A stretch of 64,000 nt of DNA. Origin: Burkholderiales bacterium. Its GTDB lineage: Bacteria; Pseudomonadota; Gammaproteobacteria; Burkholderiales; Burkholderiaceae_E. The stretch covers positions 124,001-188,000 of the forward strand of contig QEVL01000007.1 of the NCBI GenBank assembly GCA_003577305.1. Direction: 5' to 3'. The notes under the pieces are model-generated. The model saw nothing but the letters and a program-made list of their open reading frames with translations, did no database searches and had not been told where the DNA came from. Positions 59,929 through 61,123 of the stretch are shown here, piece by piece. The stretch's first letter is position 1, and each line of letters opens with the position of its first letter. A program made the translations under genes and the position numbers.

Positions 59929-60995
59929 GGCGTCCGCGCCGCCTCTTCGCATGCGTCGGCGACGCGCTGCGCGGCGTCGGGCCGGGCGAGCGCGCGCGCG
60001 CGGGCTGCCATCACCGCGAGCGCCGGCCGGTCGAGGCCCTCGAGCAGCGCGACCAGCCGCGCGGGAGTGAGTTCCGGTTGCGGCAGCAGCACGGCTGCGC
60101 CCCGCTCCGACAGGAAGCGTGCGTTGCCGGTCTGGTGATCGTCGACAGCGTGCGGATACGGCACCAGCACGCTGGCGATCCCGATCGCCGCGATCTCGGC
60201 CACCGTCATTGCGCCCGCGCGGCACACCAGCAGGTCCGCCTCCTGGTAGGCCCCTGCCATGTCGTCGATGAACTCGAGTACCGTCGCCGCGACGCCGAGT
60301 TCGCGGTAGCGCGCCTCGAGCGCCTCGCGCCGGCCGCGTCCGCTCTGATGCACCACCTGCGGGCGCGATTGCGCGGGCATCAGCGCCAGCGCCTGCGGCA
60401 CCGCGTCGTTGAGCGCCTGCGCGCCCAGGCTGCCGCCCACCACCAGCAGGCGCAGCGGACCGCTGCGGCCCCCGTAACGAGCCAGCGGCGCGTCTTCGCG
60501 AAGCATTGCGGCGCGCAGCGGATTGCCGGTGCACTGCGCGCCGGGCAGCGCGCCCGGAAACGCCTCGAGCACGCGATCGGCGAGCCGCGCAAGCAGACGG
60601 TTGGTCAGGCCGGCGACCGAATTCTGCTCGTGGATCACCAACGGCCGGCGCAGCAGCGAGGCCATCATGCCGCCGGGAAACGCGACGTAGCCGCCCATGC
60701 CGAGCACCACCGCCGGCCGCGTCGCGCGCAGCGCACGGATGCTGTCGCGAAACGCCCCGAGCAGCCGCAGCGGCAGCAGCAGCCTGGTCGCCAGGCCCTT
60801 GCCGCGCACGCCGCCGATCCGCACCCACTGCATCGCGATGCCGTGCTTCGGCACCAGCGTCGCCTCCATGCCCGACGGATTGCCGAGCCAGACCACGCGC
60901 CAGTCGCGTGCGCGCATCTCGGCGGCCACCGCCAGCCCCGGCATCACGTGGCCGCCGGTGCCGCCCGCCATGATCATGATGGTGCGCCCACTCAT
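59925..60995 (-). CDS. murG: Lipid II-forming GlcNAc transferase MurG
   Basis: MurG transfers GlcNAc from UDP-GlcNAc to lipid I on the inner membrane face. The 356-residue GT-B enzyme has the first glycine loop MAGGTGGHVMPGLAVA, ATRPAVVLGMGGYVAFPGG, VIHEQNSVAGLTNRLLAR, the UDP-binding LLVVGGSLGAQALNDAVP and CRAGAMTVAEIAAIG with PYPHAVDDHQTGNAR. Its ATG (60995) lies in the left copy of an 18-bp duplication. The insertion beside it separates it from ftsW, whose stop it would otherwise overlap by ATGA. It overlaps murC by 4 bp. Confidence 0.96.
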   Translation of the reverse strand: MSGRTIMIMAGGTGGHVMPGLAVAAEMRARDWRVVWLGNPSGMEATLVPKHGIAMQWVRIGGVRGKGLATRLLLPLRLLGAFRDSIRALRATRPAVVLGMGGYVAFPGGMMASLLRRPLVIHEQNSVAGLTNRLLARLADRVLEAFPGALPGAQCTGNPLRAAMLREDAPLARYGGRSGPLRLLVVGGSLGAQALNDAVPQALALMPAQSRPQVVHQSGRGRREALEARYRELGVAATVLEFIDDMAGAYQEADLLVCRAGAMTVAEIAAIGIASVLVPYPHAVDDHQTGNARFLSERGAAVLLPQPELTPARLVALLEGLDRPALAVMAARARALARPDAAQRVADACEEAARTP

Positions 60996-61109
60996 GCTGA
61001 ACCCCGCAGCAACGAGCCGTTTTGGCTCCGGCCGCTCGCTGCCGCTCGCTTGACTTCGCTGCGCGAAGTCAGCCTGCGCCTAAACAGGCAACTCATGCTG
61101 AACCCCGCA
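60991..61109. repeat. Inserted repeat element at the ftsW/murG junction with 18-bp duplication
   Basis: CTCATGCTGAACCCCGCA is present at 60991-61008 and again at 61092-61109. Between the copies are 83 bp that resemble the 14673-15003 array: TTGGCTCCGGCCGC, then a stem TGACTTCGC (61051-61059)/GCGAAGTCA (61063-61071), then GTCAGCCTGCGCC as in the array. The right end is an inverted copy of the last codons of ftsW. Removing one 101-bp period restores an ATGA overlap of ftsW and murG, so the segment looks inserted. Confidence 0.85.
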
Positions 61110-61123
61110 TGAGTTGCCTGTTT
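61082..61123 (-). terminator. 17-bp hairpin over the ftsW stop codon
   Basis: Bases 61082-61098 and 61107-61123 form a perfect 17-bp stem with an 8-base loop. The right arm encodes part of the ftsW C-terminus; the left arm contains the TGA stop at 61093-61095. It could end transcription or slow it before murG in the middle of the dcw operon. No U run follows. Confidence 0.6.

Follow-up and report, generated by a model that had tools for sequence, protein, structure and literature searches.

The 62-base folded sequence that separates ftsW from murG in the window (the whole 64,000-nucleotide stretch of Burkholderiales DNA analysed here) is likely a mobile element, with a way of inserting that would keep the broken gene whole. 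The junction described in the initial annotation is confirmed as real, and its reading that two loci share one plan, in which a common core stands beside a duplicated flank and a mirrored end of the neighbouring gene, is supported and holds for a family.

The ftsW-murG junction

The identities of ftsW, murG and proB come from curated models, and the positions of all features are collected in Table 1. Along the minus strand the junction presents, in order, the ftsW codons, arm L (AAACAGGCAACTCATGC), a loop, the mirror arm L' (GCATGAGTTGCCTGTTT), the core, the remnant L*, the junction copy and murG. The inverted arms L and L' are separated by 8 bases and pair at every one of their 17 positions, so that the perfect inverted copy of the ftsW 3' codons claimed from the letters alone was recovered as described. 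The duplication said to hold both the ftsW stop and the murG start was also found at its offset of 101, its length being 19 identical bases and not 18. When folded as DNA, the strand reaches -48.8 kcal/mol against -28.84 +/- 3.14 for shuffled sequences (z -6.36), and none of 200 shuffles folds as well. Natural copies served to build two covariance models (R1 from 12 of them, R2 from 62), and the core scores 73.5 bits with R1 (E 2.6e-12) in a search of its whole own genome.

Table 1. Features of the ftsW-murG junction and of the proB array, in window positions.
Feature	Position	Strand	Basis or remark
ftsW	61093..62208 (upper end approximate)	-	TIGR02614 over cut-off on window:61093-62400; stop TGA 61093-61095
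murG	59925..60995	-	TIGR01133 over cut-off and ORF; start ATG 60993-60995, in the second direct copy
GA dinucleotide preceding the inferred target cut GA|AAAC	61124..61125	-	cut between 61124 and 61123; sequence compared with the target pattern of the 95 mirrored copies
Arm L, last ftsW codons, first hairpin arm	61107..61123	-	17/17 complementary to 61082-61098
Mirror arm L', abutting the core	61082..61098	-	17/17 pairing, conserved across six genomes
Left copy of the direct repeat (ftsW/murG junction), which supplies the ftsW stop	61091..61109	-	19/19 identical to 60990-61008
Right copy of the direct repeat, which supplies the murG start	60990..61008	-	19/19 identical to 61091-61109
Core, 62 bases: outer stem, 3x3 loop, H1, degenerate H2, AAAA end	61020..61081	-	
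L*, putative decayed second copy of arm L	61009..61019	-	six-junction alignment; differs in each genome compared
Tandem array after proB, period 96	14673..15021	-	related core
Three clear cores of the proB array	14733-14797, 14829-14893, 14925-14989	-	

Removing one period gives the junction arrangement of insert-free relatives. The ten best murG relatives listed (L085-L094) include three with the insert, L085, L089 and L093 (Zeimonas arvi), and seven without it. The ATGA overlap expected at an empty site, of the kind present at murG/murC (59925-59928), is indeed seen in the insert-free L086, L088 and L090, and L087 has GTGA. Either some members of the group gained the insert or the others lost it.

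In six ftsW copies the hairpin is 99.1% paired and 4 of its 19 pairs are changed on both sides, slid controls giving none. Selection or repair between the arms could each be sufficient to keep this pairing, six sequences being few. Between genomes the loop bases vary in step, the two direct copies of a genome both having TTCA, TGCC or GGCC, and the 10-11 bases of L* are different in every genome. These comparisons suggest that L* is a freed, decaying copy of L and that the direct copies are homogenised. A scrambling of L* by the insertion itself was considered and dropped, because L* still resembles L closely in G031 (L245), which makes decay of the freed copy the simpler explanation.

The core of the insert is common to the array after proB, as had been claimed, with 80-81% identity to three of its units. 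With at most one mismatch, the window has 5 occurrences of the word GTCAGCCTGCGCC where 0.47 would be expected, and in the genome of the window five clear copies are distributed over the three loci proB, ftsW and glmS. The plan of the proB array is the same as that of ftsW, a gene end paired to a mirror arm and then the core: at the proB end, 14990-15003 pairs with 15008-15021 at 93%. One further core, cut off, was seen at the far end of this array.

Fold, distribution and host loci of the family

Within the core an outer stem (GGY/RCC) is followed by a 3x3 loop (GMA/GNA), then by an inner GG/CC and by the hairpins H1 and H2, of which H1 usually bulges out an A. Pairing holds in 96.7% of the cells across 56 distinct cores. 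Double changes in the outer stem, H1 and H2 amount to 130; shuffled data give 41.2, none of 500 shuffles reaching the observed number, and slid partners give 18 at most. The alignment was made by the first model, around H1 and H2, and favours those helices; the outer stem was added afterwards. The exchanges in the outer stem are C-G to U-A (4) and G-C to A-U (3). These paired changes support the core helices. Across 163 distinct cores, G.T pairs outnumber A.C pairs (60 vs 16, p 4e-7 ignoring kinship, beside 97 other mismatches), which indicates that the written strand is the one that folds, as RNA or as single-stranded DNA. A described Rfam RNA was rejected, since no Rfam 15 model matches inside the element in the five loci searched (E<=1); two matches, both below the gathering threshold, lie outside it.

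A strict word pattern, found in 10 of 31 genomes, all in the genus, had suggested a single-genus trait, a view overturned by the wide family that the covariance model detects. With R1, copies were found in 14 of the 18 genomes of the genus (E<=0.01) and in 25 of the 74 genomes of the family, belonging to 9 of its 16 genera (E<=1e-4). With R2, they were found in 111 of 399 genomes sampled across the order and in 55 of 158 genera (E<=1e-4), and by our own count the best E is at or below 1e-8 in 104 of these 111 carriers, the E-values being rough. The single-contig genome G115 (2.72 Mb) gives 52 matches at E<=0.001. Spread by plasmids or phages was rejected: two plasmid records gave a 26-base match at E 0.4, and the phage search gave no hits. 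G115 also holds a repeat, dispersed in the genome and some 200 bases long, that has inverted ends (GGCCGTTGAAAAAC...) and carries the core in its middle (L329:497-700 and L329:1820-2030); like copies occur in L325, L355-L360 and L366-L369, and similar repeats with the same right flank are present in G092 and G219. Inside this repeat the core probably travels with another mobile element.

Copies were located at ftsW/murG, proB, glmS, pilT, nuoD, metK, a liv-type permease gene, dnaJ, dnaB and RND pumps, the names other than ftsW, murG, proB, ThiD and LysS being our reading of translated ends, with no database call. The element often lies directly after a stop codon. According to our own reading, the nuoD copy is antisense at the gene start, three RND genes (two in G115, one in G042) read through the element in frame, and tRNA-Phe and tRNA-Ser sequences are interrupted at the anticodon loop; one intact tRNA of the interrupted kind stands alongside the copy in L346, L319 and L352. 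In ThiD of G115 (L345:40-942) an in-frame copy reads as protein, with 31 residues in place of 5 in PDB 4yl5. The copy near the start of LysS, where the alignment to solved LysS begins after the element, is a weaker case, the N-terminus being variable. Several loci carry tandem arrays whose unit number varies, for example from one to four at proB. Two glmS units with two different glmS 3' ends were observed in L084:3060-3300 (G000) and L230:930-1230 (G013); both ends read LAKSVTVE in our translation and their order is opposite in the two genomes, as if gene ends had been swapped between units.

Two further copies at ftsW deserve separate mention. At the ftsW end of G115 (L321:584-720) the mirror arm of the element has 11 bases and the loop 63, in contrast to the tight hairpin found in the genus of the window, and the element probably inserted there independently, at the same GAAAAC codons. 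In a distant betaproteobacterium (L096:2850-2960) the ftsW site of the window's insert is occupied by a shorter core with no apparent H2; this core has a mirror arm of its own and may have hit the same target independently. An identical spacer in distant relatives, named beforehand as an outcome that would speak against the two-locus plan, was absent: distant copies repeat the plan, not the sequence.

Flanking sequences and target site

Three model alignments, of 62, 81 and 50 rows (193 in total), supplied the flanks, five copy-rich genomes being represented by 60 stretches of listed matches chosen mostly by score. These gave 177 distinct contexts with enough flank, of which 21 inside the separate repeat of about 200 bases were set aside and 156 analysed. 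A mirror arm abutting the core (score >=9) is present in 95 of the 156 copies and at 6 of 2000 random positions, and a direct duplication (score >=12) in 88 copies and at 42 of the 2000, these control positions coming from G115 alone, unpurged of elements. At least one of the two features accompanies 123 of the 156 copies (family 52/58, G115 26/38, G092/G219 9/17, order sample 36/43), in agreement with the shared plan proposed from two loci. In a run restricted to the family, 42 of 61 copies reach a mirror score of at least 9, the control maximum, at positions away from cores, being 10 in 2686. Cores with neither duplicated nor mirrored flanks, the other outcome named beforehand, do exist, as a minority of 33 of the 156 at the thresholds used, several of them later units of tandem arrays and several others with no more than a 4-base mirror.

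The mirror arm and the right-hand copy begin at one target position, the cut GA|MAA. In the 95 mirrored copies the base at -2 is G in 78 and at -1 A in 94, and on the other side of the cut +1 is A in 56 or C in 30, +2 is A in 93 and +3 is A in 89. For the duplication, the initial annotation had offered either a target-site duplication or a template switch; the sharp start common to both features suggests that they come from one event. The bases adjacent to the core on its left and right are complementary over k=5 in 40 of the 156 copies (permuted mean 5.0, maximum 14) and over k=8 in 18 (permuted mean 0.5, maximum 3). Mirror arms measure 9-25 bases, and the direct repeats, read in register, are 17 to 93 nt long, arrays inflating some of these values. 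By the distance from the cut to the mirror, 78 distinct targets form two groups, a shorter one of 29 targets (11-29 nt) and a longer one of 49 (39-89 nt); in a 400-base upstream search the distance exceeded 110 nt in 17 contexts, of which 16 are at multi-unit loci. Copies such as L317, L323, L343 and L362 have only a 4-base mirror (GAAAAC-GAA-GTTT or like) before the core, and their right ends are not clean target copies. They could represent another insertion mode, or a fixed-sequence guide as in IS200/IS605.

Proposed insertion route and competing explanations

We propose, tentatively and at slightly less than an even chance, that the family consists of folded cores of about 60 bases that insert at GA|MAA by target-primed copying, duplicating and mirroring their target. 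The chemistry that we infer would proceed as follows: (i) one strand would be nicked at the T-rich side of GA|MAA; (ii) the 3' end at the nick would prime the copying of the folded single-stranded core, RNA or DNA; (iii) the new 3' end would then lie at the base of the hairpin, because the two ends of the core meet in a stem, and would copy 10-20 target bases to give L'; (iv) copying would switch to the other target strand, cut further along; and (v) fill-in would leave the direct duplication. Where the duplication includes the stop codon, as at ftsW, the gene end would be rebuilt before the element, the insertion would be tolerated and the second L would decay into L*. Since the duplication holds the lost gene end, insertions near a stop would survive, which would explain the presence of the element at gene ends. 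The common start of mirror and right-hand copy, the T-rich strand opposite the cut, the variable direct repeats and a core whose ends meet in a stem all fit target-primed copying, and the sharp nick site common to the right-hand junction and the mirror start, which a target-primed retroposon requires, is seen as GA|MAA in the 95 mirrored copies. The two groups of cut-to-mirror distances and the unclean right ends of the 4-base-mirror copies fall outside what this model explains.

Target-primed retroposition of LINEs and SINEs shows a T-rich nick side, variable-length duplications and fold-back or inversion at the far junction. The present family shares the nick side, the variable duplications and the fold-back, and differs in being bacterial, about 60 bases long and without association to a reverse transcriptase. 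A SINE-like bacterial retroposon, in which the reverse copy of a gene-less folded RNA of about 60 bases snaps back and writes a host mirror of 10-20 bases, is a narrower form of the proposal that we regard as unlikely at present. Of the 111 carriers, 37 have RVT_1, as do 99 of the 288 non-carriers (odds ratio 0.95), hence with no association; Y1_Tnp occurs in 74 of 111 and 155 of 288, respectively (odds ratio 1.72, p 0.024 uncorrected for kinship). Among the 22 genomes richest in copies, 4 lack both RVT_1 and Y1. Neither a resident reverse transcriptase nor a resident Y1 stands out as shared mover, the association being nil for the one and weak for the other. G115 has one RVT_1 hit, whose surroundings look by eye like a prophage with a diversity-generating retroelement; both there (L427:3053-6161) and in G166 (L428:497-2951) the reverse transcriptase stands beside a variable-looking protein end and its near copy. 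Our search for literature on bacterial SINE-like elements found no paper. Yeast mitochondrial GC clusters are likewise short palindromic mobile units, for which an RNA-mediated route has been considered; their flanking repeats are of 2-3 bases (AG or ACT) and the available part of that account mentions no mirrored host sequence (PMC4478555), in contrast to the duplication of tens of bases and the mirror seen here.

Plain template switching is a serious rival, above all for the short-hairpin group, and in our judgement an improbable one overall. In a replication error without a dedicated enzyme, a nascent strand would snap back at a short native inverted repeat, copy the gene end backward, pass to a core located elsewhere and come back. 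The resulting direct-inverted-direct plan is that of small inverted triplications, which the available part of PMC13334657 attributes to fold-back and template switch. The short-hairpin group agrees with it in that its duplications extend into the mirror arm where there is a native inverted repeat. Of the six single-unit ftsW junctions listed, five show this overlap, at 8-9 bases (L089 8, L085 9, L227 8, L082 8, L255 9), and the empty site L086 also reads CTCAT...ATGAG. Against such an error stand a shared core with fixed ends and the sharp GA|MAA, whose G at -2 is not given by homology to the core end; the duplication also stops before the mirror arm in many of the 58 copies listed, and many long-loop copies show no such overlap. 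The family also differs from small inverted triplications by its conserved core at the inverted/direct junction, its sequence-specific breakpoint and the recurrence of the plan across the order.

IS200/IS605 elements are not known to duplicate their target. Single-stranded DNA transposition by a Y1 (HUH) enzyme, as in these elements and in REPs, with the bases on the 5' side of the hairpin as a target-pairing guide, is less probable again. The folded strand has the polarity that it calls for, guide-like foot bases pair with the flank as in the complementarity test above, and the Y1_Tnp association, weak as it is, points the same way. Duplications of tens of bases, in 88 of the 156 copies, and mirror arms of 9-25 bases are nevertheless not known from the IS608 scheme, and no Y1_Tnp hit was found in 37 of the 111 carriers, including G000, G003, G008, G092, G327, G219 and G427. 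The foot tags are GTAG in 0 and CGTC in 0 of 156 copies, the commonest being TTTC (73) and TTGC (47). According to the available part of PMC8266576, IS200/IS605 elements move as a folded single strand in which the bases on the 5' side of the hairpin pair with the cleavage site, target and guide changing together, a likeness shared by the bases 5' of the present core. REP elements, in the available part of PMC3733652, are short structured repeats often placed after genes and sometimes inside them, some within longer palindromes, and no dedicated transposase is known there for CGTC REPs. The present element resembles GTAG and CGTC REPs in being short, structured and placed after genes and sometimes inside them, and differs by a variable foot tag complementary to the target, a larger three-helix core, and the mirror arm and duplication of the host gene.

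A selected, immobile cis-regulatory RNA of the host, acting as terminator or mRNA 3' end protector, is very unlikely, in spite of the frequent position directly after stop codons and the conserved pairing of the ftsW hairpin, given the antisense copy at the nuoD start, the copies in frame in ThiD and RND genes and within tRNA genes, the near relatives that lack the element and its varying copy number per locus.

Two further classes were tried and rejected. Integron attC sites have an invariant AAC/GTT in their R boxes, whereas in 56 cores the corresponding pair position is A-U in 31 and G-C in 23; GTTRRRY is present in 80 of the 156 copies. DDE-transposase MITEs have terminal inverted repeats and a duplication of fixed length, as opposed to direct repeats of 17 to 93 nt and an outer stem of only 3+2 pairs here. 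No published description of the element was found by title or abstract, in a search where subscription literature was thinly covered and an earlier report is possible.

Miniature mobile repeats of bacteria are known, but in this family the insertion comes with both a mirror of its target and a direct duplication, and many natural insertions thereby record the order of cuts and copying steps. Target-primed copying with duplication of the target offers an account of how the element can be found at ftsW-murG, glmS, proB, metK, nuoD and tRNA genes without their destruction. If the folded strand is RNA, the family would be a bacterial counterpart of SINEs, in which the duplication would rebuild the gene end and so allow landing in essential genes, tRNA genes and reading frames.
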